Shown here: piece by piece, positions 11,662 through 46,901 of the stretch
How positions within the stretch are numbered: position 1 is the stretch's first letter
Layout: each line of letters opens with the position of its first letter
NCBI GenBank assembly: GCA_018398995.1
Contig: CP073759.1
Coordinates: 1,380,311-1,444,310 of the forward strand
DNA: 64,000 nt
Source: Methylophilaceae bacterium
GTDB taxonomy: Bacteria; Pseudomonadota; Gammaproteobacteria; Burkholderiales; Methylophilaceae
Direction: 5' to 3'
The notes under the pieces: generated by a model
Databases searched by the model: none
Told to the model about the DNA's origin: nothing
What the model saw: only the letters and a program-made list of their open reading frames with translations
Translations under genes and position numbers: made by a program

Positions 11662-13026
11662 ATGTTAGACAATTTAACAGGACGCTTGCAGGGCGTTATT
11701 AAAAATCTACGTGGGCAAGCACGGTTAACAGAAGACAATATAGCCGATGCGATGCGTGAGGTGCGCATGGCTTTACTAGAGGCAGATGTGGCGTTGCCAG
11801 TGGTTAAAGACTTTATTGCAAAAGTAAAAGAACGCGCTAATGGCCGAGCGGTGTTACAAAGTTTAAGCCCAGGACAGGCGGTTATTGAAGTTGTTAACGA
11901 AGAACTAACGGCGTTGATGGGTAAGGCAAATGTCGCACTTAATCTGGCCGCTGTTCCGCCGGTAGTGATTTTAATGGCGGGGTTGCAAGGCTCAGGTAAA
12001 ACAACCACTTGCGCCAAGTTAGCTAAATTGCTTAAAGCGGATAAGAAAAAAGTGTTGCTTGCTAGTGCAGATGTTTACCGTCCAGCCGCAATTACCCAAT
12101 TGCAAACGCTGGCGAATCAATTAGAGGTTGATTGTTTTGACAGTCATATTGAGCAAAAACCTGCCGAAATTGCCGAGAAAACAATAGCGTATGCCAAAGT
12201 CAATTACTATGATGTGGTGATTTTCGATACTGCGGGTCGATTGGGTATTGATGAAGCCATGATGGCTGAAATTAAAGCCTTACACGCACAACTGAAACCA
12301 GCAGAAACCTTATTTGTAGTTGATGCCATGCAAGGTCAAGATGCTGTGAATACCGCCAAAGCTTTTGGTGAAGCATTGCCACTTACTGGGGTAGTCCTCA
12401 CTAAACTAGATGGTGATGCGCGTGGCGGCGCAGCGCTATCTGTACGCCACGTGACTGGTCAGCCAATTAAATTTATAGGTGTTAGTGAGAAGGTTGATGG
12501 TTTAGAGCCATTTCACCCCGATCGCATGGCAGGCCGCATTTTAGGCATGGGCGATGTGCTGGGTTTGATTGAACAAGCGCATAAAAATGTCGATATGGAT
12601 GAAGCGAAAAAAGTCGCTGATAAAATCAAATCAGGTAGTAAATTTGATTTAGAGGACTTTAAAGCGCAGATGGTACAAATGCGTAAAATGGGCGGTATGA
12701 GTGCGCTGATGGATAAAATGCCATCACAAGTAGCTGAAATGGCGTCAAAAGTCAGCAGCGATGAGGCAGAGAAATCTTTACGCCGCATAGAAGGCATTAT
12801 TAATAGTATGACGCCTTTAGAGCGGCGTAAACCTGAGTTGATTAAAGCCACGCGTAAAAAGCGCATTGCTGCCGGTAGTGGTGTACAAGTGCAGGAAGTG
12901 AATCGTCTGCTTAAACAGTTTGAAGAGACGCAGAAAATGATGAAAATGTTTAGTAAAGGCGGTATTGCTAAGCTGATGCGCGGCATGGGCGGCCTAATGG
13001 GTGGAAAACTGCCAGGGATGCGATAA
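11662..13026 (+). CDS. ffh: Signal recognition particle GTPase Ffh
   Basis: Binds 4.5S RNA and signal sequences of nascent membrane proteins and delivers ribosomes to FtsY. The 454-aa product contains an N domain, the G domain with P-loop GLQGSGKTTTCAKLA near residue 107, DTAGRLGIDEAMM, and TKLDGDARGGAALS, then the methionine-rich M domain that ends in a Met/Gly stretch (MRGMGGLMGGKLPGMR). Full length. rpsP or trmD do not follow; the next gene is tRNA-Lys. Confidence 0.97.
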   Translation: MLDNLTGRLQGVIKNLRGQARLTEDNIADAMREVRMALLEADVALPVVKDFIAKVKERANGRAVLQSLSPGQAVIEVVNEELTALMGKANVALNLAAVPPVVILMAGLQGSGKTTTCAKLAKLLKADKKKVLLASADVYRPAAITQLQTLANQLEVDCFDSHIEQKPAEIAEKTIAYAKVNYYDVVIFDTAGRLGIDEAMMAEIKALHAQLKPAETLFVVDAMQGQDAVNTAKAFGEALPLTGVVLTKLDGDARGGAALSVRHVTGQPIKFIGVSEKVDGLEPFHPDRMAGRILGMGDVLGLIEQAHKNVDMDEAKKVADKIKSGSKFDLEDFKAQMVQMRKMGGMSALMDKMPSQVAEMASKVSSDEAEKSLRRIEGIINSMTPLERRKPELIKATRKKRIAAGSGVQVQEVNRLLKQFEETQKMMKMFSKGGIAKLMRGMGGLMGGKLPGMR

Positions 13027-13169: not shown

Positions 13170-13245
13170 GGGGAGTTAGCTCAGCTGGTAGAGCAGCGGA
13201 CTTTTAATCCGTTTGTCACGCGTTCGATCCGCGTACTCCCTACCA
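13170..13245 (+). tRNA. tRNA-Lys (anticodon TTT)
   Basis: A complete 76-nt cloverleaf: acceptor GGGGAGT pairing with ACTCCCT (one G-U at the first pair), TA at positions 8-9, D arm GCTC...GAGC, anticodon stem GCGGA/TCCGT with loop CTTTTAA (TTT anticodon), T arm CGCG-TTCGATC-CGCG and an encoded CCA. Its 3' half and downstream terminator recur in decayed form at 17.5 kb, suggesting use as an integration site. Confidence 0.97.
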
Positions 13246-20080: not shown

Positions 20081-20430
20081 ATAAATTTCATTTCTTTCCA
20101 GTCCTCTTTGGCTCATTAAATCTTCTCGATGTTGCTAAGAAAATTACAAATTTACCCGAGAGGCATTGTTTGACTGGGTTTCATAAAGCTGTTCTCTAAA
20201 TATTTCAAGAATTACATAGAAAAAAGTACAGGTTTTGCCAATATTGAAGTGATCTTAATAGGAGGATCTGATCATTACAATTTTTTTTGAATAATTTAAG
20301 AATTAATTTTTAGTTTTATTACAAAATAGTATCTTTCAGATATTTTTTAAGATAATATAAAAAAAATATTTTTTTAACTAAATTTTTTCTTTTTAAATCA
20401 ATTAATCAAGAAAAAAGAGAGACCTAATAT
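20081..20430. other. AT-rich upstream region of the autotransporters
   Basis: Very AT-rich and gene-free; it presumably carries the promoter of the autotransporter pair, but I cannot single out a convincing -35/-10 pair. A purine-rich AAAAAAGAGAGACC about 20 bases before the ATG may serve as ribosome binding site. Confidence 0.4.
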
Positions 20431-23400
20431 ATGCTATCCAGAACATTTTCATTTAAATTTATTAAGATCGGGCATGTAGTAATTTCTGCTGCATTCTTTG
20501 CGCTTGCTGCTTTTTCATCATCATTATCTGCGGCTACGTACGAACTGGGAACAACGATAGCCGGTAGTGATTCAAGTGGCTCAACAATTTATAACTCAAA
20601 TGTTCAATCTTATAATTATGGGTCGTTGTTGGGTGCCCCAAGCACACTGATAATTAATATTTATGGTAACACCACCAATTTCACTGGCTCCATCCGCCAG
20701 TTTAACTACACCCCCAACACCTTCGCTGCGCTTGGGGTCAGTGGCGGGGAATTTACTGGTAGCGATAGTTTTGTATTGGGCTCTGGAGTTGTTGTTGATT
20801 CTGTTACGTTAGGCTCTGCAGCATCAGGGCAATATAGCGCTATATTTGATGGTATTGGTTATGAGTGGACTGGCAGTATTGGTAGTTCATCGACTGTTAC
20901 TTCCTATGCTGTTGAAACATCTGGATCTCTTGCTTTGAATGGGGGTAACTACATTAATGGTGATACGCGTGCTGATAGTGGTGTTAATGTTCTAGGTTCT
21001 GGTAATTTTATGAATGGTGATGTTGATGCCAACATAACTTTTAACAATGCGGGTTCACTCACGGTTGCTGGTGGCGGTGATGTTACGGGAAATATTAACT
21101 TTGGTGGCTATAATGGTCTTTTGACTTTAAGTGATGGAAGTGATGTTGCTGGTAGCATCGATACATCTTCAAGCAGGACTGGGTCAGTAGTTTTTGAAAA
21201 TAATAGTATTGTGACTGGTTCTATTGGCTCTACCTCAGCAATTGAAGAGGTCAGTGCTAATGGTACAGGTGTTGTGCAAATTAACGGCTTAACAAACGCA
21301 ACTGAGGTCAATCTTTATGCTGCAGGTACAGTCGCTTTTGGCGGAGGATTGGATACCCGTTTTTCTGACAGCGATAACGGCCTCGTGAATTTTAGAAACT
21401 ACAACGGTACTGTACAAATTGGTAATGACTCTTCTTTATATGGCGATGTTATCAACAGCGCAAACAATCTTGGTACCTTAACTTTTGTATCTGGCGCGCA
21501 ATCAATGAACGGGCAGATTGGTACCGATTCAAACAAAATTAATACTTTAAACATCGGCGGTGCTAATACAGGCTTAGGTTTTGATGTGTCTACCGATGTG
21601 TATTCAACTACAACCGTCAATGGTGATGTGTTTGCTACTAGCACTGTTTTAAATAACTCATCTGTTGCAAGTTCTGAATTGATTTTAGCAACTGGGAAAA
21701 ATATTACAGGTACTTCTGTCACAACAGCTGATGCTAATAAAGGTATTTTAACTTTGCAAGGTGGCGATCAGACTGTTACAGCTAGTGTTGGCGCTAGTGG
21801 TGCTTGGCTAAATACAGTAAATTCCGGCGCTGATTCTGCAAATTCAACCATTACAGGCGATGTTTACTCAGTTAATGTGACGAATACTGGTTCTGGCACA
21901 TCTAATTTCAACGGTAATGTGACTGCAACTAATATCAACGTTGATGCTGGTACGTCTTATTTCAATCAGTCAGTGAATGCAACTACCACAAGAATTGGAA
22001 CAGGTACAGGACATTTCAATACTGTAGGTGGTACAACCTCGAGCACTAATTTAAATTTTACTGGTAATGGTACGGCCAATCTTAATCAAGGAATGACATT
22101 TACCAACATTGATTATGCTGGAAATGATGCAACAGTCAATGTGGCAGCAGATAAAAACCTTGTAGGAACTGCTATTTCAACAACAACCGATGGGACTGGC
22201 TATCTGAATATGTTGGGTGGCACTCAAACTGTTGATGCAACGGTAGGCGCAGCCTCATTGGGTTTAAATAAAATCACAGCAGGTGCTGATGGGGCGACAA
22301 CTAACTTTACCAATACCGCTGCAGTATATGCCAATACATTGGAAGTGACTGGTAATGGTTTAGTCAATCTTTCTGGAGGTTTGGTTGGGAACTTGGACTA
22401 TGTTAATAACGTATCGTCTGAGAATGGCACAGTTACAATTGCAAGTGGTAAAAATTTAATTGGTAATGTAACTACGGGAGCTTCTGGCTACAGCCAAGGC
22501 GTATTGACAATGATTGGTGGCGAACAGCAAGTCAGTGGCACTATCGGTTCAGATGGCGCGCCTCTGACTACGGTCAATGCAGGTGCCACCGGTTCTACCA
22601 CAACGCTAAATGGTATGACGTATGCCGATACCCTTCAGTTTACCGGTAACGGTACAGTCGTACTAAACGGAACAAACAGTGCAAATCCTGTTGCGGGATT
22701 AAAAGGAACTGTAGATTTTGGAACTAATGCAATCACAGACACAGGAACTTTAGAAGTTGGTGATGGTGTAAATTTAACAACGGGTGCAACTGGAATTAAC
22801 TTCAAAGATGCTAATAATGCAACGCTAACGTTTAATGGTTCAAGCACTGTGACAGGCAATATTGGTAGCGCAGGAAATGATGATAATAACGTTTTCAAAA
22901 CTATTAACGCGGGTGTGACTGGCAAGTTTGTAACCTTCTTGGGTGATGTTTATGTGAGTGCATCAACATTCCACGTAACAGGAGATGGTGTGGTTAACCT
23001 AGGTGGCGATTTGTACGGTCCATTAACGTTTGACAGTCCTTCTGAAGGATCCGTAAATATTGCTAATAATAAATCTATTATTGTTTCAAGTGGCCCGCAA
23101 GTGACCTCTTACGGCACTTCTTCAGCAGGTAAAGGTACAGTCAATTTCGTGGGTGGGACAACGCTTTCTGGGGATGTTGGTACATCAAGTGCATATATTT
23201 TAGCGGCTAACTTTCACAACACAACGAGTGATACTACAAACAGTCCACTTTATGTGGGTTCAGTAACGCAAACACTTAATAAAAATATTTACGCCACCAC
23301 TACAACGATTGGTAATGATCTTGGATATGCAACTGTTGGTGATGTTACGGCGAATGTATTCTTGGGTAACGCATTAACACTGTCTGCAGGAACAACTGTA

Positions 23401-25041
23401 TCAACTTCCACTACCACCTTAAATACAGCTGGTTCTGTTGATGCATTAAGTGGCAGCGTTGTGTTTAATCATAGTAAAAATGCAGATGGAACTTTGACTA
23501 ATGTTGCAACTGTCACACAGTCAACTTTTGGAGAAAGTGTATTTACTACAAATGGCGGTACATTAAATTTTGCGGTGGCTAGTGAAGCTTACAATAATAG
23601 TTTTGGCGGGGGGCAGCTAAGCTCGGACGTCACGCAATCAAGTAAAGTTAGCGGTGGTACAGGGTCGACTTTAGCAATGAACGGTAATGAGAAAGTTAAC
23701 ATTAGCTTACTTGGCAGTTTGCGTAATAATGTTTCATATACATTAATTGATGTTGCAAGTGGAGATACTAATGCAAATCAAGCCGCAACGCTTATTGACA
23801 ACAGCTACGTAATTGACACTATACTGTCTCGTTCAAATGGTGATTTAGTTTTAACAACTAGTCGTGATGAGAATACCTATGTAAATAAATCCAATACACT
23901 TGGTCATTTCTCTAATAACGCTGCAACTACGCTTGCTGGCCTTGGTGCTTTAGGTACTGGTTATAGTAGTGATATGCAAGTCGTATTTAATCAGCTAGAT
24001 CTTGATCAGTGGGGTTATGGTAATAATCAAGCTAATTTAGCAAATGAGGTTAAGAGGTTGGCTCCTATTTCAAATGGATCCTTAACCAGGTCAGCTGTCG
24101 CTGCTAATACATTGGCGCTTGATGTTGCAAATTCGCGTATGGCTGGATTACGTGGAGATATAGTATTGGCTAATAGTTTGACTGGTATATCATCCGGGAA
24201 TGCACAGCCTGATTCAGCTTTTTGGATGAGGGCGCTTGGCTCAACTGCTAAGCAAGATCAACGTAAGAGCTATGATGGTTATAGAACTAATACTTATGGA
24301 GCTGCTTTTGGATTGGATCATAATGTCACAGATGACCTCATTCTTGGGTTTGGTCTTGCTGCTGTGACTGCAAGAGTTGATCAACATGATTTCCGTAGTG
24401 CTGATGATGCTCGAATCAACAACTATTCTGGCATGATTTATGGTAGTTACAATCTTAGTAATGAGGCTTATGTAGAGGGTGTCATAAACTATACTGAAAA
24501 TAAATACAGAGGCGATAGAGCAACTGCAGTTGGAAGAAATGCCCGCTATGACTTTGACGGGAATCAATATGGCGGTAGGTTGGGTGCAGGATATAAGATT
24601 AGTTTAGGTAATAATACGACATTTATTCCAATGGCCTCCATTGAGTACAGTCGATTAGAGCAAGATGCTTATACTGAAAAAGATGCAGGTGCTATTGGAT
24701 TAAATGTAGACAGTCAGTCCTATAGTCGTACTCGATATGGTCTTGGTGGTAGGTTAACAACTAAACTTGGCACTGAAATAATTTATCGCCCAGAAATTGA
24801 CTTAGGTTGGTATAGAGATACGGGAACACTTAATAAAGACGTAGTTGCATCATATATTGGCGGCGGGGAGAAATTTGTGACGCCTGGTACGGATTATATT
24901 GGTCGCAATTTTGTGAATCTAGGCCTTGGTTTAAATGTTGAAGCTAGTCAGTTAACAACAATTCAGGTGCGCTATGATTTGGATGCAAGTAATGGTTTTG
25001 AAAGTCATACTGGCTCAATCGCTGCTAGAATAAACTTTTAA
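20431..25041 (+). CDS. Autotransporter adhesin (type Va), first of tandem pair
   Basis: A 1536-aa outer-membrane autotransporter. Residues 1-36 are a long signal peptide ending SSSLSAATYELG. The passenger (about 37-1260) is rich in Gly, Asn, Thr and Ser with recurring short motifs such as LNFTGNGTANL, TVTIASGKNLIGNV and VTGNIGS, consistent with a right-handed beta-helix. The C-terminal about 270 residues (from FWMRALGSTAKQDQRKSYDGY) are the autotransporter beta-barrel and end in the aromatic SIAARINF needed for BAM-mediated insertion. No protease or lipase motif is visible, so an adhesive or aggregative role is inferred. From 20866 on it appears identical to the next gene. Confidence 0.93.
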   Translation: MLSRTFSFKFIKIGHVVISAAFFALAAFSSSLSAATYELGTTIAGSDSSGSTIYNSNVQSYNYGSLLGAPSTLIINIYGNTTNFTGSIRQFNYTPNTFAALGVSGGEFTGSDSFVLGSGVVVDSVTLGSAASGQYSAIFDGIGYEWTGSIGSSSTVTSYAVETSGSLALNGGNYINGDTRADSGVNVLGSGNFMNGDVDANITFNNAGSLTVAGGGDVTGNINFGGYNGLLTLSDGSDVAGSIDTSSSRTGSVVFENNSIVTGSIGSTSAIEEVSANGTGVVQINGLTNATEVNLYAAGTVAFGGGLDTRFSDSDNGLVNFRNYNGTVQIGNDSSLYGDVINSANNLGTLTFVSGAQSMNGQIGTDSNKINTLNIGGANTGLGFDVSTDVYSTTTVNGDVFATSTVLNNSSVASSELILATGKNITGTSVTTADANKGILTLQGGDQTVTASVGASGAWLNTVNSGADSANSTITGDVYSVNVTNTGSGTSNFNGNVTATNINVDAGTSYFNQSVNATTTRIGTGTGHFNTVGGTTSSTNLNFTGNGTANLNQGMTFTNIDYAGNDATVNVAADKNLVGTAISTTTDGTGYLNMLGGTQTVDATVGAASLGLNKITAGADGATTNFTNTAAVYANTLEVTGNGLVNLSGGLVGNLDYVNNVSSENGTVTIASGKNLIGNVTTGASGYSQGVLTMIGGEQQVSGTIGSDGAPLTTVNAGATGSTTTLNGMTYADTLQFTGNGTVVLNGTNSANPVAGLKGTVDFGTNAITDTGTLEVGDGVNLTTGATGINFKDANNATLTFNGSSTVTGNIGSAGNDDNNVFKTINAGVTGKFVTFLGDVYVSASTFHVTGDGVVNLGGDLYGPLTFDSPSEGSVNIANNKSIIVSSGPQVTSYGTSSAGKGTVNFVGGTTLSGDVGTSSAYILAANFHNTTSDTTNSPLYVGSVTQTLNKNIYATTTTIGNDLGYATVGDVTANVFLGNALTLSAGTTVSTSTTTLNTAGSVDALSGSVVFNHSKNADGTLTNVATVTQSTFGESVFTTNGGTLNFAVASEAYNNSFGGGQLSSDVTQSSKVSGGTGSTLAMNGNEKVNISLLGSLRNNVSYTLIDVASGDTNANQAATLIDNSYVIDTILSRSNGDLVLTTSRDENTYVNKSNTLGHFSNNAATTLAGLGALGTGYSSDMQVVFNQLDLDQWGYGNNQANLANEVKRLAPISNGSLTRSAVAANTLALDVANSRMAGLRGDIVLANSLTGISSGNAQPDSAFWMRALGSTAKQDQRKSYDGYRTNTYGAAFGLDHNVTDDLILGFGLAAVTARVDQHDFRSADDARINNYSGMIYGSYNLSNEAYVEGVINYTENKYRGDRATAVGRNARYDFDGNQYGGRLGAGYKISLGNNTTFIPMASIEYSRLEQDAYTEKDAGAIGLNVDSQSYSRTRYGLGGRLTTKLGTEIIYRPEIDLGWYRDTGTLNKDVVASYIGGGEKFVTPGTDYIGRNFVNLGLGLNVEASQLTTIQVRYDLDASNGFESHTGSIAARINF

Positions 25042-25048
25042 TTTTTTA
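20866..25048. repeat. 4.18-kb duplicated segment, copy 1
   Basis: Matches 25846-30028 at a constant offset of 4980 bases with no difference in the lines compared. It covers most of the passenger, the whole barrel and the stop codon. Confidence 0.9.
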
Positions 25049-25074
25049 ATTTTTTAATTTTATAAGAATGAATA

Positions 25075-28000
25075 ATGATGGAAAAAAAATCTCTTACATT
25101 TAAATTTATTAAGATCGGGCATGTAGTAATTTCTGCTGCATTCTTTGCGTTTGCTGCTTTTTCATCATCATTATCTGCGGCTACGTACGAACTGGGAACA
25201 ACTATAGCCGGTAGTGATTCAATTGGCTCAACAATTTATAACTCAAATGTTCAATCTTATAATTATGGGTCGTTGCTTGGTACGCCGCAAACCACTATTC
25301 AAAATAGTGTATATCAGGATACAACCTACTTAACTGGTTCAATACGTCAATCCAATTTTACCGTCAACAATTTTGCTGCTCTTGGAGTTAGTGGTGGGGA
25401 ATTTACTGGAAGCGATAGTTTTGTATTGGGCTCTGGAGTTGTTGTTAATTCGATAACCACTGGCACACCTGCTTCCGGCCAGTATAGTCCGACGCTCTAT
25501 TATTATTCTGAGTTAATGAATCGTTACGTTAGAGACATGGTGCTGACTGCAGGTCTCGATGTTGATTGGTCAAGTAATGAATATCTTAACGGAACTTCTG
25601 GTGGTCCTGCTTCTTTTACAACTACAACTCCTCTGGGTACTGTTTCTACTTACGGTTCTGGTAGTCCATTTACATGCGATCCATTTGGTGCTTATACGTG
25701 TTATTCTGCAAGAACTTCTTCTCTTTACACAGGTTTAACTCCTAATTCTGGTGAAACTGTTGGTGGGACGGTAGTTTTAGGTGCAGGTTATGAAATTCGT
25801 ACAATAGGTAAGGCTTCTTACACAGTCACCAATACTTTTACAGATTGGACTGGCAGTATTGGTAGTTCATCGACTGTTACTTCCTATGCTGTTGAAACAT
25901 CTGGATCTCTTGCTTTGAATGGGGGTAACTACATTAATGGTGATACGCGTGCTGATAGTGGTGTTAATGTTCTAGGTTCTGGTAATTTTATGAATGGTGA
26001 TGTTGATGCCAACATAACTTTTAACAATGCGGGTTCACTCACGGTTGCTGGTGGCGGTGATGTTACGGGAAATATTAACTTTGGTGGCTATAATGGTCTT
26101 TTGACTTTAAGTGATGGAAGTGATGTTGCTGGTAGCATCGATACATCTTCAAGCAGGACTGGGTCAGTAGTTTTTGAAAATAATAGTATTGTGACTGGTT
26201 CTATTGGCTCTACCTCAGCAATTGAAGAGGTCAGTGCTAATGGTACAGGTGTTGTGCAAATTAACGGCTTAACAAACGCAACTGAGGTCAATCTTTATGC
26301 TGCAGGTACAGTCGCTTTTGGCGGAGGATTGGATACCCGTTTTTCTGACAGCGATAACGGCCTCGTGAATTTTAGAAACTACAACGGTACTGTACAAATT
26401 GGTAATGACTCTTCTTTATATGGCGATGTTATCAACAGCGCAAACAATCTTGGTACCTTAACTTTTGTATCTGGCGCGCAATCAATGAACGGGCAGATTG
26501 GTACCGATTCAAACAAAATTAATACTTTAAACATCGGCGGTGCTAATACAGGCTTAGGTTTTGATGTGTCTACCGATGTGTATTCAACTACAACCGTCAA
26601 TGGTGATGTGTTTGCTACTAGCACTGTTTTAAATAACTCATCTGTTGCAAGTTCTGAATTGATTTTAGCAACTGGGAAAAATATTACAGGTACTTCTGTC
26701 ACAACAGCTGATGCTAATAAAGGTATTTTAACTTTGCAAGGTGGCGATCAGACTGTTACAGCTAGTGTTGGCGCTAGTGGTGCTTGGCTAAATACAGTAA
26801 ATTCCGGCGCTGATTCTGCAAATTCAACCATTACAGGCGATGTTTACTCAGTTAATGTGACGAATACTGGTTCTGGCACATCTAATTTCAACGGTAATGT
26901 GACTGCAACTAATATCAACGTTGATGCTGGTACGTCTTATTTCAATCAGTCAGTGAATGCAACTACCACAAGAATTGGAACAGGTACAGGACATTTCAAT
27001 ACTGTAGGTGGTACAACCTCGAGCACTAATTTAAATTTTACTGGTAATGGTACGGCCAATCTTAATCAAGGAATGACATTTACCAACATTGATTATGCTG
27101 GAAATGATGCAACAGTCAATGTGGCAGCAGATAAAAACCTTGTAGGAACTGCTATTTCAACAACAACCGATGGGACTGGCTATCTGAATATGTTGGGTGG
27201 CACTCAAACTGTTGATGCAACGGTAGGCGCAGCCTCATTGGGTTTAAATAAAATCACAGCAGGTGCTGATGGGGCGACAACTAACTTTACCAATACCGCT
27301 GCAGTATATGCCAATACATTGGAAGTGACTGGTAATGGTTTAGTCAATCTTTCTGGAGGTTTGGTTGGGAACTTGGACTATGTTAATAACGTATCGTCTG
27401 AGAATGGCACAGTTACAATTGCAAGTGGTAAAAATTTAATTGGTAATGTAACTACGGGAGCTTCTGGCTACAGCCAAGGCGTATTGACAATGATTGGTGG
27501 CGAACAGCAAGTCAGTGGCACTATCGGTTCAGATGGCGCGCCTCTGACTACGGTCAATGCAGGTGCCACCGGTTCTACCACAACGCTAAATGGTATGACG
27601 TATGCCGATACCCTTCAGTTTACCGGTAACGGTACAGTCGTACTAAACGGAACAAACAGTGCAAATCCTGTTGCGGGATTAAAAGGAACTGTAGATTTTG
27701 GAACTAATGCAATCACAGACACAGGAACTTTAGAAGTTGGTGATGGTGTAAATTTAACAACGGGTGCAACTGGAATTAACTTCAAAGATGCTAATAATGC
27801 AACGCTAACGTTTAATGGTTCAAGCACTGTGACAGGCAATATTGGTAGCGCAGGAAATGATGATAATAACGTTTTCAAAACTATTAACGCGGGTGTGACT
27901 GGCAAGTTTGTAACCTTCTTGGGTGATGTTTATGTGAGTGCATCAACATTCCACGTAACAGGAGATGGTGTGGTTAACCTAGGTGGCGATTTGTACGGTC

Positions 28001-30021
28001 CATTAACGTTTGACAGTCCTTCTGAAGGATCCGTAAATATTGCTAATAATAAATCTATTATTGTTTCAAGTGGCCCGCAAGTGACCTCTTACGGCACTTC
28101 TTCAGCAGGTAAAGGTACAGTCAATTTCGTGGGTGGGACAACGCTTTCTGGGGATGTTGGTACATCAAGTGCATATATTTTAGCGGCTAACTTTCACAAC
28201 ACAACGAGTGATACTACAAACAGTCCACTTTATGTGGGTTCAGTAACGCAAACACTTAATAAAAATATTTACGCCACCACTACAACGATTGGTAATGATC
28301 TTGGATATGCAACTGTTGGTGATGTTACGGCGAATGTATTCTTGGGTAACGCATTAACACTGTCTGCAGGAACAACTGTATCAACTTCCACTACCACCTT
28401 AAATACAGCTGGTTCTGTTGATGCATTAAGTGGCAGCGTTGTGTTTAATCATAGTAAAAATGCAGATGGAACTTTGACTAATGTTGCAACTGTCACACAG
28501 TCAACTTTTGGAGAAAGTGTATTTACTACAAATGGCGGTACATTAAATTTTGCGGTGGCTAGTGAAGCTTACAATAATAGTTTTGGCGGGGGGCAGCTAA
28601 GCTCGGACGTCACGCAATCAAGTAAAGTTAGCGGTGGTACAGGGTCGACTTTAGCAATGAACGGTAATGAGAAAGTTAACATTAGCTTACTTGGCAGTTT
28701 GCGTAATAATGTTTCATATACATTAATTGATGTTGCAAGTGGAGATACTAATGCAAATCAAGCCGCAACGCTTATTGACAACAGCTACGTAATTGACACT
28801 ATACTGTCTCGTTCAAATGGTGATTTAGTTTTAACAACTAGTCGTGATGAGAATACCTATGTAAATAAATCCAATACACTTGGTCATTTCTCTAATAACG
28901 CTGCAACTACGCTTGCTGGCCTTGGTGCTTTAGGTACTGGTTATAGTAGTGATATGCAAGTCGTATTTAATCAGCTAGATCTTGATCAGTGGGGTTATGG
29001 TAATAATCAAGCTAATTTAGCAAATGAGGTTAAGAGGTTGGCTCCTATTTCAAATGGATCCTTAACCAGGTCAGCTGTCGCTGCTAATACATTGGCGCTT
29101 GATGTTGCAAATTCGCGTATGGCTGGATTACGTGGAGATATAGTATTGGCTAATAGTTTGACTGGTATATCATCCGGGAATGCACAGCCTGATTCAGCTT
29201 TTTGGATGAGGGCGCTTGGCTCAACTGCTAAGCAAGATCAACGTAAGAGCTATGATGGTTATAGAACTAATACTTATGGAGCTGCTTTTGGATTGGATCA
29301 TAATGTCACAGATGACCTCATTCTTGGGTTTGGTCTTGCTGCTGTGACTGCAAGAGTTGATCAACATGATTTCCGTAGTGCTGATGATGCTCGAATCAAC
29401 AACTATTCTGGCATGATTTATGGTAGTTACAATCTTAGTAATGAGGCTTATGTAGAGGGTGTCATAAACTATACTGAAAATAAATACAGAGGCGATAGAG
29501 CAACTGCAGTTGGAAGAAATGCCCGCTATGACTTTGACGGGAATCAATATGGCGGTAGGTTGGGTGCAGGATATAAGATTAGTTTAGGTAATAATACGAC
29601 ATTTATTCCAATGGCCTCCATTGAGTACAGTCGATTAGAGCAAGATGCTTATACTGAAAAAGATGCAGGTGCTATTGGATTAAATGTAGACAGTCAGTCC
29701 TATAGTCGTACTCGATATGGTCTTGGTGGTAGGTTAACAACTAAACTTGGCACTGAAATAATTTATCGCCCAGAAATTGACTTAGGTTGGTATAGAGATA
29801 CGGGAACACTTAATAAAGACGTAGTTGCATCATATATTGGCGGCGGGGAGAAATTTGTGACGCCTGGTACGGATTATATTGGTCGCAATTTTGTGAATCT
29901 AGGCCTTGGTTTAAATGTTGAAGCTAGTCAGTTAACAACAATTCAGGTGCGCTATGATTTGGATGCAAGTAATGGTTTTGAAAGTCATACTGGCTCAATC
30001 GCTGCTAGAATAAACTTTTAA
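25075..30021 (+). CDS. Autotransporter adhesin (type Va), second of tandem pair
   Basis: A 1648-aa paralogue of the preceding gene, starting 33 bases after its stop and probably in the same transcript. Signal peptide and first about 70 residues are almost the same as in the first gene. The N-terminal passenger then carries a unique region of roughly 110 extra residues (about 140-255, containing LMNRYVRDMVLTAGLD and two Cys in FTCDPFGAYTCYSA). From WTGSIGSSSTVTSYAV the two proteins are identical to the end, including the barrel (about 1375-1648). The pair would therefore differ only at the tip of the passenger. The ATG at 25075 and the next codon ATG are both possible starts. Confidence 0.93.
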   Translation: MMEKKSLTFKFIKIGHVVISAAFFAFAAFSSSLSAATYELGTTIAGSDSIGSTIYNSNVQSYNYGSLLGTPQTTIQNSVYQDTTYLTGSIRQSNFTVNNFAALGVSGGEFTGSDSFVLGSGVVVNSITTGTPASGQYSPTLYYYSELMNRYVRDMVLTAGLDVDWSSNEYLNGTSGGPASFTTTTPLGTVSTYGSGSPFTCDPFGAYTCYSARTSSLYTGLTPNSGETVGGTVVLGAGYEIRTIGKASYTVTNTFTDWTGSIGSSSTVTSYAVETSGSLALNGGNYINGDTRADSGVNVLGSGNFMNGDVDANITFNNAGSLTVAGGGDVTGNINFGGYNGLLTLSDGSDVAGSIDTSSSRTGSVVFENNSIVTGSIGSTSAIEEVSANGTGVVQINGLTNATEVNLYAAGTVAFGGGLDTRFSDSDNGLVNFRNYNGTVQIGNDSSLYGDVINSANNLGTLTFVSGAQSMNGQIGTDSNKINTLNIGGANTGLGFDVSTDVYSTTTVNGDVFATSTVLNNSSVASSELILATGKNITGTSVTTADANKGILTLQGGDQTVTASVGASGAWLNTVNSGADSANSTITGDVYSVNVTNTGSGTSNFNGNVTATNINVDAGTSYFNQSVNATTTRIGTGTGHFNTVGGTTSSTNLNFTGNGTANLNQGMTFTNIDYAGNDATVNVAADKNLVGTAISTTTDGTGYLNMLGGTQTVDATVGAASLGLNKITAGADGATTNFTNTAAVYANTLEVTGNGLVNLSGGLVGNLDYVNNVSSENGTVTIASGKNLIGNVTTGASGYSQGVLTMIGGEQQVSGTIGSDGAPLTTVNAGATGSTTTLNGMTYADTLQFTGNGTVVLNGTNSANPVAGLKGTVDFGTNAITDTGTLEVGDGVNLTTGATGINFKDANNATLTFNGSSTVTGNIGSAGNDDNNVFKTINAGVTGKFVTFLGDVYVSASTFHVTGDGVVNLGGDLYGPLTFDSPSEGSVNIANNKSIIVSSGPQVTSYGTSSAGKGTVNFVGGTTLSGDVGTSSAYILAANFHNTTSDTTNSPLYVGSVTQTLNKNIYATTTTIGNDLGYATVGDVTANVFLGNALTLSAGTTVSTSTTTLNTAGSVDALSGSVVFNHSKNADGTLTNVATVTQSTFGESVFTTNGGTLNFAVASEAYNNSFGGGQLSSDVTQSSKVSGGTGSTLAMNGNEKVNISLLGSLRNNVSYTLIDVASGDTNANQAATLIDNSYVIDTILSRSNGDLVLTTSRDENTYVNKSNTLGHFSNNAATTLAGLGALGTGYSSDMQVVFNQLDLDQWGYGNNQANLANEVKRLAPISNGSLTRSAVAANTLALDVANSRMAGLRGDIVLANSLTGISSGNAQPDSAFWMRALGSTAKQDQRKSYDGYRTNTYGAAFGLDHNVTDDLILGFGLAAVTARVDQHDFRSADDARINNYSGMIYGSYNLSNEAYVEGVINYTENKYRGDRATAVGRNARYDFDGNQYGGRLGAGYKISLGNNTTFIPMASIEYSRLEQDAYTEKDAGAIGLNVDSQSYSRTRYGLGGRLTTKLGTEIIYRPEIDLGWYRDTGTLNKDVVASYIGGGEKFVTPGTDYIGRNFVNLGLGLNVEASQLTTIQVRYDLDASNGFESHTGSIAARINF

Positions 30022-30028
30022 TTTTTTA
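25846..30028. repeat. 4.18-kb duplicated segment, copy 2
   Basis: Partner of 20866-25048; identity stops just after the stop codon (ATTTTTTA, then the copies differ). Confidence 0.9.
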
Positions 30029-30137
30029 CGAGATTTTTTATTTATAAATGCGGCTAATTTTAACGGGAAATTACAAAAAAGTATTTAATAGTAAAAGATC
30101 CTTATGTATATGAGGTGAGGTACGTCTCTATACTATT

Positions 30138-32003
30138 TTAGGTTTTGCAATATGGTTCTAGTAGCCCCACTATCATTTCCGCAGTATTTTCTCTTGAATG
30201 CTGAGTTAAAGGTATTTTTGTAAATAAGTTATTGTTAACCAAAGTAATCGCATTTATCGAATCGACTGGTAAACCAGTATAGAGGAGCTCATCATTTTGC
30301 ACAACTATTAGCAAATATTCTACATCTTTATTCATTAACAACATTCTGCAACGATCGAATAATCCCACACTAGGAAGTGCGAATATAATTTCATTTGAAA
30401 CGTCAAATGTTTGTAAATGAGTGGTCAAAAAACTCTCCTGACTTTCGGAAGCAAGCTCCTGTTGACGGAGACGTGCTCTATTCAAAGCTTGGTCATTTCC
30501 AATGAAAACCTCAATCGGTATGCGCCCTCCACCGCTAACAAGACTTTGTACCAGTGCCTCAACACCTTTACGTTGATAATCATATCGTTGGTCTAAAAAA
30601 GGTGCAAAGTTTACTTCATTGATTATTGCTCCATTTTCGTACCAAGGCTTACTGATATCTTCTGTAATTAGATCAACTCCTGCAATATTCAAGCTCATAA
30701 GTTGTGCAGCCTGGAAGGCTATTCTAATGTTTTCAGGATGTATTTGCTCAGTTAAAAGATTGGGAGACCCGCCCCATTCAGTGGACTCAATAGGGCGTAA
30801 AAAAACTAATAGTTCAGATTCAGGAATGGAGTGGTAATTTAACCCTTGATCTTTTAATGTTTTCTCTGTTAGTTCATCCAGTAAACAGGGCTTTTTTCGA
30901 AGGTGCTTAGCCTTACGACTTTCCTTTGCTGTTTCAAGCATACACAGTTCTTTTACCGTATGCTTTCCATCACCTTTAACAGATTTTGGAAGCCGAGCAA
31001 CAGTATACAGATGTAAATTACCTGCTAAGAGAATGCGATGACAGACGCCAGAAACCTGACGTTCTACCAAGATATTTTTTGAGAATTTTGAAGCATGATT
31101 GAATGCATGACTAAGAAATTTAGAATTATTAATGCTTGTAGTTACACCTTCACCACGGTCTCTATCAGCAGGTTTTATTACTACTGGATAGCCAATCAGA
31201 TTGGCTGCTTCTAGTGCCTGATTAAATGTGGCGACTGAATAGTGGAATGGAGCTGGTAATCCCGCTAATCTTAAAACCTCTGAACAAGCTACCTTATTTT
31301 GGCTCAACTTTGAACCAATTGCTGAATCAAGCTCCGTCGTACTTCGATGAGACATGCACCTTCTAGAACCCCACCCCAGCTGGTAAACGCCTTTTCCTAT
31401 ATGCATAAAAGGAATATCTAGGTTAAATGCAGTTTTTAAGATTGGTATTGTTGACTCTCCTCCAGGCACTTGTTGTTTGGCTGTAATTATGAATTTTTCA
31501 TGCAATTCTTCAAATTGAGCTGATATATCTGTTTCAGTCAAAGTAGTATTAGAGAAGTATTTAATTAAGCGACATGCAATTTCTAAGGATTTGTAGATAA
31601 TAGAAAGTGAATGATTTTCGACAAAGGGAAAACGACATGCTATTAAATAGGAATGTTTGTTTTTATCGATAGTCTTTATTTCGTTAATAAGACCTGCGGA
31701 AATCGAAGGAATTTTTAATGCCTGCAGCAGACTTCTCGAGAGTAACATTGCTAACCAAAAAAAATCTTGAGCCGTATACTCATCATTACTTAATTTGCGT
31801 ACAATTAATGTATTGATGGGTGAATAGTCCATATTAAAACGCTCTTGAAACTCCTCCCTGAGTTCTGTCAAATTTAAGGAATCCGGTAAAATAAATTCAA
31901 CATTTATTGGTATGGACAGTTGCTTCAATCCAAGGTAATATGATGGAAATATTTGGTATTTATTATTAAAGTTTGTTGCTTTTATGTTTTCTGATTTTTT
32001 CAT
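30138..32003 (-). CDS. Cyanophycin-synthetase-like ATP-grasp protein
   Basis: A 621-aa protein. Residues about 200-490 align with the ATP-grasp part of cyanophycin synthetase: QLGWGSRRCMSHRSTTELDS, NKVACSEVLRLAGLPAP, YPVVIKPADRDRGEGV (272-287) and AGVDLITEDI...GAIINEVNFAPF (441-469, the Mg-binding E-x-N). Where cyanophycin synthetase continues with GRIPIVAVTGTNGKTT, this protein has GGRIPIEVFIGNDQALNRAR (491-510): the Mur-ligase P-loop is lost and only about 130 diverged residues follow. It probably forms an amide or peptide bond through an acyl-phosphate but cannot be a normal cyanophycin polymerase. It is divergent from a 32-codon peptide gene (start codons 18 bases apart) and an HExxH enzyme, suggesting peptide tailoring. 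No ribosome binding site precedes the ATG at 32003, so a start further inside is possible. Confidence 0.82.
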   Translation of the reverse strand: MKKSENIKATNFNNKYQIFPSYYLGLKQLSIPINVEFILPDSLNLTELREEFQERFNMDYSPINTLIVRKLSNDEYTAQDFFWLAMLLSRSLLQALKIPSISAGLINEIKTIDKNKHSYLIACRFPFVENHSLSIIYKSLEIACRLIKYFSNTTLTETDISAQFEELHEKFIITAKQQVPGGESTIPILKTAFNLDIPFMHIGKGVYQLGWGSRRCMSHRSTTELDSAIGSKLSQNKVACSEVLRLAGLPAPFHYSVATFNQALEAANLIGYPVVIKPADRDRGEGVTTSINNSKFLSHAFNHASKFSKNILVERQVSGVCHRILLAGNLHLYTVARLPKSVKGDGKHTVKELCMLETAKESRKAKHLRKKPCLLDELTEKTLKDQGLNYHSIPESELLVFLRPIESTEWGGSPNLLTEQIHPENIRIAFQAAQLMSLNIAGVDLITEDISKPWYENGAIINEVNFAPFLDQRYDYQRKGVEALVQSLVSGGGRIPIEVFIGNDQALNRARLRQQELASESQESFLTTHLQTFDVSNEIIFALPSVGLFDRCRMLLMNKDVEYLLIVVQNDELLYTGLPVDSINAITLVNNNLFTKIPLTQHSRENTAEMIVGLLEPYCKT

Positions 32004-33192: not shown

Positions 33193-33414
33193 GGTTTGTC
33201 TGAACTTGGCAACTAGTTTGGGACTAAAGTGGTTGAGAGTTTGTTGTTTTATTTAAACTCCATAATGATCCAGGTGAATAATGTAATCTACTATTACGTG
33301 ACATAAATCATGTGTGTTGCCACATTAAGTCTTGTCAGACACTAATGATTTTTGCATTTGTTCAATTCAGTGATGGGTAATCCCCCCATTTTTAGTAGCC
33401 GCTAAAAGTAGAGC

Positions 33415-34242
33415 TTAGGCAACACGTTGTAATTTCTGCATTGGAGTCATGCCACCGATGCCCATGTTTGGCCTTTCATGATTGTATGTCCAAAGCCAAT
33501 GTGTAGCAAACGCCTGCACTTCTTTAATCGTATCAAACAACATATGTGCCAACCAATCATAACGGACTGTACGATTGTAACGTTCTATATAGGCATTTTG
33601 CTGTGGGCTACCTGGCTGAATATAATCAATCCTAATCCCTCGCCTTGCCGCCCATTCTGTTAGCGTTGCACTGATATACTCAGGGCCATTATCACAACGG
33701 ATGATATTTGGTCTGCCACGCCATTCAATAATCTGATCTAGCGAGCGCACCACACGCGCTGAGGGTAATGAAAAATCAACTTCAATGTTAAGCCCCTCGC
33801 GGTTGAAATCATCAATTACGTTAAATAGCCGAATACTACGCCCATCCGATAGCTGATCATGCATAAAATCCATTGACCACACCTCATTGATGCGCCCAGG
33901 TACAGTCAGTGCCAAGGGCATCTCTCTAACTAGCCGCTTACGCGGCTTAATACGCAGATTAAGCTCTAAAAGACGATAGATGCGATATACACGCTTATGA
34001 TTCCAGCCAAAGCCTTTCACATTGCGCAAGTATAGAAAACATAAACCAAAGCCCCAGTTACGCTGGTGCTGCGTCAATCGTAGTAACCAATCTGCAATGT
34101 CATCATTCTCTGTGGATAGCTTAGCGCTATAGCGGTAGCAGCCTTCACTTAGGGCAAAGGTATTGCAGGCCAATCGAATACTCAGGCTTTTATGCTCAAC
34201 CACCCAGCGTGCCATCTCTCGACGCTGAGATGGCTTCACCAC
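33415..34242 (-). CDS. IS3-family transposase OrfB, copy A
   Basis: 275-aa catalytic half of the transposase: HTH_21 region ([19 protein letters not shown]), then the rve integrase core with the first Asp in [11 protein letters not shown], the second in [12 protein letters not shown] and Glu in [15 protein letters not shown]. It overlaps orfA by seven bases in a -1 frame, with an A7-G run at the junction that fits programmed -1 frameshifting to make OrfAB. Confidence 0.9.
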
Positions 34243-34501
34243 TTTTTTTGCATCACCTCTTTGAGTACGTCTGCTTGAAGCTGAACTTCGGCATACATTT
34301 TTTTAAGGCGTCGATTCTCATCTTCGAGCTCTTTCATGCGAGACACCATGGACGCATCCATGCCACCGTATTTAGCACGCCATTTATAAAATGTGGCGGA
34401 GCTCATTCCATGCTCACGGCACAAATCAGGTACTGGCGAACCGGATTATGCCTGTTTCAATATGTTGATGATCTGACTCTCGGTAAATCTTGATAGCTTC
34501 A
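34236..34501 (-). pseudogene. IS3-family orfA with internal stop, copy A
   Basis: Starts MKLSRFTESQIINILKQA, then a TAA where the related element at 35.4 kb has Glu, then continues [29 protein letters not shown] and a leucine zipper to VMQKKW. The open part begins at MCREHGMSS (34424). All three copies share this stop. Copy A keeps the A7 run after RRLK that preserves the rest of the frame. Confidence 0.8.
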
Positions 34502-37827: not shown

Positions 37828-39021
37828 GGTAATCCCCCCGCATAAAAGTAGCATTTAGAAGTAGAATTTTCTTAATTAGATTTAAAGGAATTTTTACATG
37901 AAGCTATCAAGATTTACCGAGAGTCAGATCATCAACATATTGAAACAGGCATAATCCGGTTCGCCAGTACCTGATTTGTGCCGTGAGCATGGAATGAGCT
38001 CCGCCACATTTTATAAATGGCGTGCTAAATACGGTGGCATGGATGCGTCCATGGTGTCTCGCATGAAAGAGCTCGAAGATGAGAATCGACGCCTTAAAAA
38101 ATGTATGCCGAAGTTCAGCTTCAAGCAGACGTACTCAAAGAGGTGATGCAAAAAGTGGTGAAGCCATCTCAGCGTCGAGAGATGGCACGCTGGGTGGTTG
38201 AGCATAAAAGCCTGAGTATTCGATTGGCCTGCAATACCTTTGCCCTAAGTGAAGGCTGCTACCGCTATAGCGCTAAGCTATCCACAGAGAATGATGACAT
38301 TGCAGATTGGTTACTACGATTGACGCAGCACCAGCGTAACTGGGGCTTTGGTTTATGTTTTCTATACTTGCGCAATGTGAAAGGCTTTGGCTGGAATCAT
38401 AAGCGTGTATATCGCATCTATCGTCTTTTAGAGCTTAATCTGCGTATTAAGCCGCGTAAGCGGCTAGTTAGAGAGATGCCCTTGGCACTGACTGTACCTG
38501 GGCGCATCAATGAGGTGTGGTCAATGGATTTTATGCATGATCAGCTATCGGATGGGCGTAGTATTCGGCTATTTAACGTAATTGATGATTTCAACCGCGA
38601 GGGGCTTAACATTGAAGTTGATTTTTCATTACCCTCAGCGCGTGTGGTGCGCTCGCTAGATCAGATTATTGAATGGCGTGGCAGACCAAATATCATCCGT
38701 TGTGATAATGGCCCTGAGTATATCAGTGCAACGCTAACAGAATGGGCGGCAAGGCGAGGGATTAGGATTGATTATATTCAGCCAGGTAGCCCACAGCAAA
38801 ATGCCTATATAGAACGTTACAATCGTACAGTCCGTTATGATTGGTTGGCACATATGTTGTTTGATACGATTAAAGAAGTGCAGGCGTTTGCTACACATTG
38901 GCTTTGGACATACAATCATGAAAGGCCAAACATGGGCATCGGTGGCATGACTCCAATGCAGAAATTACAACGTGTTGCCTAAGCTCTACTTTTAGCGGCT
39001 ACTAAAAATGGGGGGATTACC
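37828..39021 (+). mobile_element. IS3-family element, copy B (1194 bp)
   Basis: Same element as copies A and C in the opposite orientation, with ends GGTAATCCCCCC (37828) and GGGGGGATTACC (39021). Compared with copy A it is one base shorter in the A run inside orfA and two bases shorter in the A run at the orfA/orfB junction. Confidence 0.9.
38101..38982 (+). CDS. IS3-family transposase, fused OrfA-tail/OrfB, copy B
   Basis: A 293-aa frame. Because the junction run has only five A residues here, the last part of orfA ([18 protein letters not shown]) is joined in frame to orfB ([14 protein letters not shown]...) without frameshifting. The rve catalytic core is identical to the other copies. 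The upstream part of orfA carries the common TAA and an extra one-base deletion, so only this partial fusion can be made. Confidence 0.85.
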
Positions 39022-39298
39022 CATATAAGAGATTTTTTATGTTTATGAAGAAAGTGAAAGAAGCTATTACATACTGTTCTCAGTTATATCAATGATATTG
39101 ATATATATATTAAAAAAATGGTATTATATTATGAGTAAAAGTATATATATAACTATTGTATACATTAATTCTATAATGCTTTCTATGTAATATTGTTAAA
39201 GTGTAAGGGCTATTTATTGTTGAACTACTTTAATATTGAAGTTAATCATTAACAAATAAAGTTTTGTACTTTTTGCGCATATATAATTAATTAAATAG

Positions 39299-41303: not shown

Positions 41304-42498
41304 GGTAATCCCCCCATTTTTAGTAGCCGCTAAAAGTAGAGCTTAGGCAACACGTTGTAATTTCTGCATTGGAGTCATGCCACCGATGCCCATGTTTGGC
41401 CTTTCATGATTGTATGTCCAAAGCCAATGTGTAGCAAACGCCTGCACTTCTTTAATCGTATCAAACAACATATGTGCCAACCAATCATAACGGACTGTAC
41501 GATTGTAACGTTCTATATAGGCATTTTGCTGTGGGCTACCTGGCTGAATATAATCAATCCTAATCCCTCGCCTTGCCGCCCATTCTGTTAGCGTTGCACT
41601 GATATACTCAGGGCCATTATCACAACGGATGATATTTGGTCTGCCACGCCATTCAATAATCTGATCTAGCGAGCGCACCACACGCGCTGAGGGTAATGAA
41701 AAATCAACTTCAATGTTAAGCCCCTCGCGGTTGAAATCATCAATTACGTTAAATAGCCGAATACTACGCCCATCCGATAGCTGATCATGCATAAAATCCA
41801 TTGACCACACCTCATTGATGCGCCCAGGTACAGTCAGTGCCAAGGGCATCTCTCTAACTAGCCGCTTACGCGGCTTAATACGCAGATTAAGCTCTAAAAG
41901 ACGATAGATGCGATATACACGCTTATGATTCCAGCCAAAGCCTTTCACATTGCGCAAGTATAGAAAACATAAACCAAAGCCCCAGTTACGCTGGTGCTGC
42001 GTCAATCGTAGTAACCAATCTGCAATGTCATCATTCTCTGTGGATAGCTTAGCGCTATAGCGGTAGCAGCCTTCACTTAGGGCAAAGGTATTGCAGGCCA
42101 ATCGAATACTCAGGCTTTTATGCTCAACCACCCAGCGTGCCATCTCTCGACGCTGAGATGGCTTCACCACTTTTTTGCATCACCTCTTTGAGTACGTCTG
42201 CTTGAAGCTGAACTTCGGCATACATTTTTTAAGGCGTCGATTCTCATCTTCGAGCTCTTTCATGCGAGACACCATGGACGCATCCATGCCACCGTATTTA
42301 GCACGCCATTTATAAAATGTGGCGGAGCTCATTCCATGCTCACGGCACAAATCAGGTACTGGCGAACCGGATTATGCCTGTTTCAATATGTTGATGATCT
42401 GACTCTCGGTAAATCTTGATAGCTTCATGTAAAAATTCCTTTAAATCTAATTAAGAAAATTCTACTTCTAAATGCTACTTTTATGCGGGGGGATTACC
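41304..42498 (-). mobile_element. IS3-family element, copy C (1195 bp)
   Basis: Third copy, same orientation as copy A. Its junction A run is six and its internal orfA run six. Its right end abuts a cut IS150-like remnant (42499 on), while the rest of that remnant is missing on the left side. No target duplication is visible. Confidence 0.9.
41343..42170 (-). CDS. IS3-family transposase OrfB, copy C
   Basis: 275-aa catalytic protein, identical in the regions compared to copy A ([27 protein letters not shown]). The associated orfA (about 42175-42429) has the common TAA codon and a one-base loss in its RRLKK run, so this copy could transpose only with help. Confidence 0.88.
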
Positions 42499-43413: not shown

Positions 43414-44616
43414 TTATTTTTCACCTAGTGATTCGCTAATTGTTTTAACGATTGGTTTTGTCAAGTATTGCAGCACTGTTTTTCTACCAGTTTTAACTTC
43501 CACCATACCTGTCATACCAGGTAATATTTCGAGTTTCACGTCAGGTTTAGCACTAAATATAGGTTTTGCTATAAGCACATGAATGCGATAGAAGGGCTCT
43601 TCATTTTCGTGTAATCTTTCACTTAATGTATCTGCGCTGATGAACACAAGCTCCCCCATCATGCCACCATACACTGTAAAGTCATAAGTATCTATTTTTA
43701 CAGTTGCTTCTTGGCCAAGTTCTAAGAAAGCTATGTCTGCAGGGGAAACTTTCGCCTCTATGACTAATTCATCGTCAACTGGCACAATATGCATTACCTC
43801 GTCTCCAGGCCTAATCACGCCTCCTAGGGTCGTGATTTGTACATTTTTAACAATACCTTTTACTGGGGCAAGTATTTCAGTTTGTAGTAGTTGATCTTTT
43901 TTTTGTGCAAGCGCTTGTCTTGCACCGTTTAGATCCTCTTCCGCCTTACTTAACTCTGACTGAGAGTCTTGAAAATACTTGTTCCGTTTATTATTTATTT
44001 GCGCGTCTAAATCGGCAATTTGTCGCTGCAGTCTAAGCACCTCAGTACGGCTCACATCTCCAGACGTCACCAGAGGTAAATTCATATCTAGCTCTTGAAC
44101 AACATAGACACGCATTTTCTCTAACGATGCAAGTTCTTGATTTAAAGCATCACGGCGTTTTTTAAGTAATAAAAGCTGATTCATTTTATAGCCGGGATAA
44201 TTATCGACTTCGCGCTCAAAAATAGGATTTCCACCAAATACTTCCGCTCTCAGTCTGGCTGCAGTTGCCGAAAGCGCAACTGTTTTAGCGCGAATTTCCA
44301 TAAAAGCCGCTTCAGCTCGTGTACGATTAGTTCTAAATAAGACATCACCAGCTTCAACTTTGCTGCCTTCCTTTACTAATAGTTCCTCAAGTACACCACC
44401 ATCTTGAGATTGGATAATCTGTGTTCGTGAGCTGGCAATAATTTTGCCCGGGGCTCGAGTAATCTGGTCAATTTCAGCAAGGTATGCCCAAAGTAAAAAA
44501 GTGCCTACTGTGATAAAAGTCAACCATAAAACCCATCTTGAGCCACGATTTTCCTCAAATGAAAGCGCTTGTTTTGATGTTTTTTCATTTTTAGTCAGAA
44601 ACCAGAATAAATTCAT
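43414..44616 (-). CDS. Type I secretion membrane-fusion protein (HlyD/LapC family)
   Basis: A 400-aa periplasmic adaptor that bridges the inner-membrane ABC exporter and the outer-membrane channel. One transmembrane helix near residues 30-50 (VLWLTFITVGTFLLWAYLAEI), a lipoyl-like segment (GKIIASSRTQIIQSQDGGVLEEL), a long coiled coil (about 110-250) and a C-terminal beta-barrel (VLQTEILAPVKGIVKNV, GMTGMVEVKTGRKTVLQYL). It overlaps the exporter gene by four bases (ATGA). The cargo is very likely the giant adhesin encoded divergently. Confidence 0.92.
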   Translation of the reverse strand: MNLFWFLTKNEKTSKQALSFEENRGSRWVLWLTFITVGTFLLWAYLAEIDQITRAPGKIIASSRTQIIQSQDGGVLEELLVKEGSKVEAGDVLFRTNRTRAEAAFMEIRAKTVALSATAARLRAEVFGGNPIFEREVDNYPGYKMNQLLLLKKRRDALNQELASLEKMRVYVVQELDMNLPLVTSGDVSRTEVLRLQRQIADLDAQINNKRNKYFQDSQSELSKAEEDLNGARQALAQKKDQLLQTEILAPVKGIVKNVQITTLGGVIRPGDEVMHIVPVDDELVIEAKVSPADIAFLELGQEATVKIDTYDFTVYGGMMGELVFISADTLSERLHENEEPFYRIHVLIAKPIFSAKPDVKLEILPGMTGMVEVKTGRKTVLQYLTKPIVKTISESLGEK

Positions 44617-46886: not shown

Positions 46887-46901
46887 TCTACTTTTGCCTT
46901 C

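Follow-up and report, generated by a model that had tools for sequence, protein, structure and literature searches.

How do two adjacent genes come to encode outer membrane proteins that differ at their N-terminal tips and share a body that is the same to the last base? The question is raised by a pair of autotransporter genes in a window of 64,000 nucleotides (the whole stretch of DNA analysed, to which the positions below refer) from a genome of the Methylophilaceae, a family whose members use methanol, that is assembled as a single contig of 2,025,576 bases.

Organization of the gene pair and its products

The two genes lie head-to-tail on the plus strand, with gene 1 at positions 20431–25041 and gene 2 at 25075–30021, and in the list of open reading frames both are intact, encoding proteins of 1536 and 1648 amino acid residues respectively. 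An earlier note on this DNA placed the left limit of the feature at 20866; this is where the identical block described below begins, gene 1 itself starting at 20431. The spacer between the genes (25042–25074) is 33 bp long and no terminator-like site was found within it in a scan of positions 20081–30140, which suggests that both genes are carried on a single transcript. The sole terminator-like site in the scanned segment is a hairpin 3′ of gene 2 (30112–30128, plus strand); this constitutes weak evidence because the one site observed is below the mean of 6.7 in shuffled sequences. To the right, and convergent with the autotransporter pair, is a gene (30138–32003) encoding a 621-residue ATP-grasp protein with weak matches to ligase domains, which we presume to resemble a cyanophycin-synthetase-like ligase.

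The Pfam autotransporter beta-domain (PF03797) is matched by both proteins across all 255 of its positions with E values of about 1e-50, at residues 1264–1516 of the gene 1 product (24220–24978, E 9.7e-51) and at residues 1376–1628 of the gene 2 product (29200–29958, E 1.1e-50). Both proteins end in phenylalanine, the aromatic C-terminal residue that is a feature of the barrel, and both begin with a putative signal peptide, the hydrophobic stretch and plausible cleavage site of which were read by eye from the translations. The two genes probably encode type Va (classical, AT-1) autotransporters, and we infer surface display and a role in adhesion from the autotransporter family to which they would belong. 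The C-terminal part of the gene 1 product also matches the end of the NCBIfam model for rickettsial rOmpA (NF052635, E 3.6e-15), but it scores 54.1 bits compared to a cut-off of 2600 and its passenger has no match; gene 2 has no match to NF052635. In the structural models the body begins with beta strands, for part of which the pLDDT values are in the 70s, and the tips of both proteins gave models with pLDDT below 50 that are too poor to use. A fold search of the PDB with the gene 1 model alone returned nothing at E ≤ 0.001, and a sequence search of the PDB gave a single weak match (E 0.0014), between residues 1387–1558 of gene 2 and an esterase autotransporter.

Identical bodies, conserved leaders and mosaic tips

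The extent of similarity between the genes varies greatly along their length. First, from codon 146 of gene 1 through the passenger body, the beta-domain and the stop codon to 7 bases beyond it, the two copies (20866–25048 and 25846–30028, both on the plus strand) constitute a maximal exact repeat of 4183 bp with no mismatches. The constant offset of 4980 that the earlier note had reported holds across all 4183 bases, as does its observation that identity extends through silent sites to just past the stop codon. Had the body diverged to the same extent as the leader (see below), the probability of finding no changes in 4183 bases would be about 10^-50. The silent sites indicate recent copying or conversion of the body, and for this part of the genes the previous proposal of recent duplication or gene conversion stands, although it does not take account of the likely import of a tip segment discussed below.

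Secondly, a 5′ repeat of 193 nt that includes the signal peptide is conserved between the genes, at 20447–20639 in gene 1 and 25094–25286 in gene 2 (plus strand, 96% identical), and it is read in the same frame in both. The signal-peptide region had been described as diverged, but codons 8–36 differ at only 1 of 87 bases and the leader as a whole (codons 8–68) at 5 of 183; in the alignment the N-terminal differences are restricted to the first ~7 codons and to the tip behind the leader.

Thirdly, the tip itself is highly diverged. Across codons 69–145 there are 73 differences in 231 aligned bases, with a dS of 1.80 and a dN of 0.23 when the extra residues of gene 2 are excluded (dN/dS of about 0.13), and these values indicate that the difference between the tips is old and that both have been under purifying selection. 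That the N-terminal tip is the variable part was correctly recognized from the outset, given a dS of this magnitude immediately beside an identical body. The presence of about 110 extra residues and a cysteine pair in the second protein was likewise recognized; in the alignment gene 2 has 112 extra residues relative to gene 1, all of them ahead of the shared body, and Cys201 and Cys209 of gene 2 are the only cysteines in either protein, gene 1 having none. Both cysteines are within a tip segment that is largely private to gene 2 (codons 139–256, 25489–25842).

What had been overlooked is that the tip is a mosaic, in which diverged segments surround an identical island of 36 bases (20761–20796 in gene 1, 25411–25446 in gene 2), a length greater than that obtained by shuffling (permutation over codons, p 0.0001). 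To the right of the island, codons 123–145 of gene 1 (20797–20865) differ from gene 2 at 28 of 69 bases and are diverged up to the junction with the body. To its left, codons 69–110 of gene 1 (20635–20760) are strongly diverged and form a patch of outlying composition, with a GC3 of 0.571, which had also escaped notice. In this patch 24 of 42 codons are GC-ending, compared to 379 of 1391 in the body (binomial p 4.4e-5), a count that exceeds those of all 1350 overlapping 42-codon windows of the body, and since the limits of the patch were chosen after the divergence pattern had been seen, this is a modest test of composition. The homologous segment of gene 2 is body-like (11 of 43 codons GC-ending) and differs from the gene 1 patch (Fisher p 0.004); the gene 2 insert is low in GC-ending codons (24 of 118), yet not significantly so (p 0.098). 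The codon usage of the gene 1 patch is thus foreign-looking, and import of the patch is likely; it is not put more strongly because the patch is short, its limits are post hoc, and a search of 187 family genomes, including that of the pair itself, revealed no donor. In this search, for which residues 1–300 of gene 2 served as the query, there were matches in two of the 187 genomes, one being the pair's own and the other a weak match (E 0.006) located outside of the leader and patch region.

The juxtaposition of 0 differences in 4183 bases of body, 5 in 183 of leader, and 73 in 231 of tip argues that the pair is a recombinational mosaic, because plain duplication followed by drift cannot produce such a pattern of identity and divergence. 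A recent plain copy that provides a greater dosage of the same function, with tips that differ only by drift, would account for the identity of the bodies but is scarcely credible, since drift that leaves the 4183 bases of the body untouched cannot yield both a tip dS of 1.8 and a difference of 112 residues; the low dN/dS ratio of the tips also favors constraint on both of them.

The explanation we favor, and consider moderately probable, is that there are two autotransporters with different tips on an identical stalk and barrel, in which the bodies have been homogenized by recombination and a diverged tip segment has been recombined in. The single transcript would encode a pair of type Va autotransporters that probably act as adhesins, and both passengers would be exported through one kind of barrel. 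The bodies would have been equalized by recent homologous recombination, either when the coding sequence was duplicated in tandem or by gene conversion of the whole body, and the tips would differ because a diverged segment recombined into at least one of the copies, the clearest candidate being codons 69–110 of gene 1.

A rival explanation is that the genes are old tandem paralogues undergoing concerted evolution: the bodies would be converted repeatedly, the tips would be held apart by selection, and nothing would have been imported. A tip that shows heavy silent divergence beside an identical body, together with a short identical tract, is the pattern of the Helicobacter homA/homB genes (PMC3960876), and agrees with this scenario. 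However, the codon usage of 20635–20760 deviates from that of the rest of the gene, and a segment of long residence would probably have lost this deviation; we therefore regard concerted evolution without import as somewhat unlikely.

Probable tip display, relatives and parallels in other bacteria

Autotransporter passengers emerge from the cell C-terminus first, and the variable N-terminal part would therefore be located farthest from the cell. On the explanation we favor, this distal tip would decide the binding to partners or surfaces, or the susceptibility to attack by phages or grazers. A further extension is that the locus acts as a recombinational tip selector in a free-living methylotroph. 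Individual cells of a population would then carry either tip, the two together or a larger number of tandem units, as a form of bet-hedging against phages or grazers, and strains would exchange tips with one another. Because the 193-base 5′ repeats share a frame, either tip could in principle be chosen by recombination: a crossover between the 5′ repeats would place tip 2 behind the start of gene 1, and one between the bodies would retain only tip 1. We view such a selector as speculative and improbable. Antigenic variation using silent cassettes was also considered and rejected, as queries with gene 1, gene 2 and the 300-residue tip match only the pair in its own genome, revealing no reservoir of further copies or spare tip cassettes, although tips without sequence similarity would escape such a search.

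The proteins have few relatives. Among the six genomes of the genus, the protein is present only in its own (0 of the 5 others), and a search of the family with gene 1, scoring at most two candidates per genome, gave matches in 33 of 187 genomes including its own; among the matches listed outside of its own genome, all start at residue 901 or later and are mostly to the beta-domain. With the body passenger as the query, only its own genome was matched among 399 of the order. A scan of genome contigs revealed no relative of gene 1, and a scan of viral contigs with gene 2 gave no match. A plasmid origin was rejected, there being no relatives in 72,556 plasmid records (tblastn with gene 2 residues 1–1242). 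As judged from sequence similarity, the passenger body is an orphan within the collections searched.

The closest parallels come from pathogens, and the pattern matches that of the babA/babB and homA/homB genes and resembles that of HMW1/HMW2. Exchange via gene conversion is described for Helicobacter pylori babA/babB, and homA/homB are reported to have a 3′ segment under concerted evolution and a divergent 5′ segment (PMC3960876). Like the pair described here, these are paralogues encoding outer membrane adhesins or adhesin-like proteins in which the 3′ part is homogenized and, for homA/homB, the 5′ part diverges, and the feature of one segment that is identical within a genome adjoining a divergent one is also present here. 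They differ in that the bab and hom genes encode Hop/Hom proteins at separate loci and are represented in many strains, whereas the present genes are tandem autotransporters in one Methylophilaceae genome. The HMW proteins of Haemophilus influenzae are two-partner secretion proteins. The differing binding regions of HMW1 and HMW2 adjoin a long identical stretch (PMC2424069), but this is at the 5′ end, whereas in the pair described here the identical part is the 4.2 kb at the 3′ end. In layout alone, the pair can be likened to omp6–omp10 of Anaplasma marginale, which are of another protein family and from a bacterium of another lifestyle; these are tandem outer membrane protein genes with short spacers (36–64 bp), and a single mRNA has been demonstrated for omp7 to omp10 (PMC4198910). 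A literature search in which we recognized no described tandem pair of autotransporters with identical bodies is not proof of absence.

The mechanism is thus a known one that is well described in pathogens, and the pair is a new example in an unusual host. Here nature has kept the stalk and barrel the same and varied the outer tip alone, which makes the function of the tip and the limits of conversion directly testable. If tips are traded among strains, then what is known of variable adhesin tips in pathogens would hold for environmental methylotrophs as well, in which the likely cause of tip exchange would be grazing or phage pressure.

Genomic setting and long repeats

The gene order up to a tRNA-Lys gene (13170–13245, plus strand) is common to Methylophilaceae loci. 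A neighboring SRP54 gene (11662–13026) has its best matches among named sequences in Methylophilaceae, with isolate ANT-32 the nearest, and the tRNA was the only RNA family found. The tRNA-Lys locus was compared in three of the five genus relatives (G003, G004 and G005, of G001–G005). A conserved gene of ~658 codons that follows tRNA-Lys is 61.6 kb away in the present genome, 0.8 kb away in G003 and 5.7 kb away in G004; the stretch examined in G005 did not show it, and there another conserved gene is located directly after the tRNA. From these distances, the pair lies within a lineage-specific stretch of ~62 kb with tRNA-Lys at its left edge, and tRNA-Lys marks a place where insertions vary from one member of the genus to another.

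The lineage-specific stretch also holds identical transposase copies, a giant Ig-like adhesin and a type I secretion set. A stretch with a transposase gene of the integrase-core (rve) type is present in three near-identical copies (33373–34247, 38150–39024 and 41304–42175), with both orientations represented. The type I secretion set (43414–48398; HlyD-like protein, ABC exporter and OEP) adjoins the giant adhesin region (50394–64285, plus strand), which has Big_12 and Big_5 domains in its first part and is built of 656/657-bp and 273-bp units. Its frame is broken where a T run differs by one base between units, which could reflect either sequencing error in the repeats or slippage. Two near-identical modules of ~4.2 kb (55095–63553, offset 4272) lie within the giant adhesin frame, and the 996-residue minus-strand open reading frames at 55789 and 60061 were discarded as candidates for a second gene duplication, being antisense to a plus-strand frame of 3371 codons (54173–64285).

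Exact direct repeats of at least 100 bases within 12 kb are absent from 14 of 15 control 20-kb stretches of the same genome, and are present in the two stretches to the right of the window, where they reach 942 bases in L135 and 194 bases in L136. Long tandem repeats thus cluster in and near the region of the pair, which fits local amplification and homogenization; a possible alternative is that the clustering reflects the handling of repeats by the assembler.

This raises the question of whether the pair is an artefact of assembly, there being in reality a single gene, or two genes whose bodies were made identical by consensus building across the repeat. The one-base difference in the T run recurs among the giant adhesin units, which suggests that the assembly was made from long reads and imperfectly polished in its repeats. 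Set against this are the assembly of the genome as a single contig, the intact reading frames of both genes, the scarcity of comparable direct repeats in the control stretches, and the position of tip 2, which comes directly after one body and leads into another, from which we infer that at least two tandem bodies are needed. An artefact is in our estimation very unlikely.

The one control stretch with repeats (L154) contains a gene for a 2634-residue protein with perfect 1296-bp tandem units in ~4.7 copies (L154:3667–11571, at about 1663667–1671571 of the genome contig, C1). The proposition that long tandem repeats are confined to surface proteins is too strong, given the repeats in L135 and L136. 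The exact direct repeats of L135 (L135:344–3257, at about 1444654–1447567 of C1; offset 1972) fall within or close to a long frame on the minus strand.
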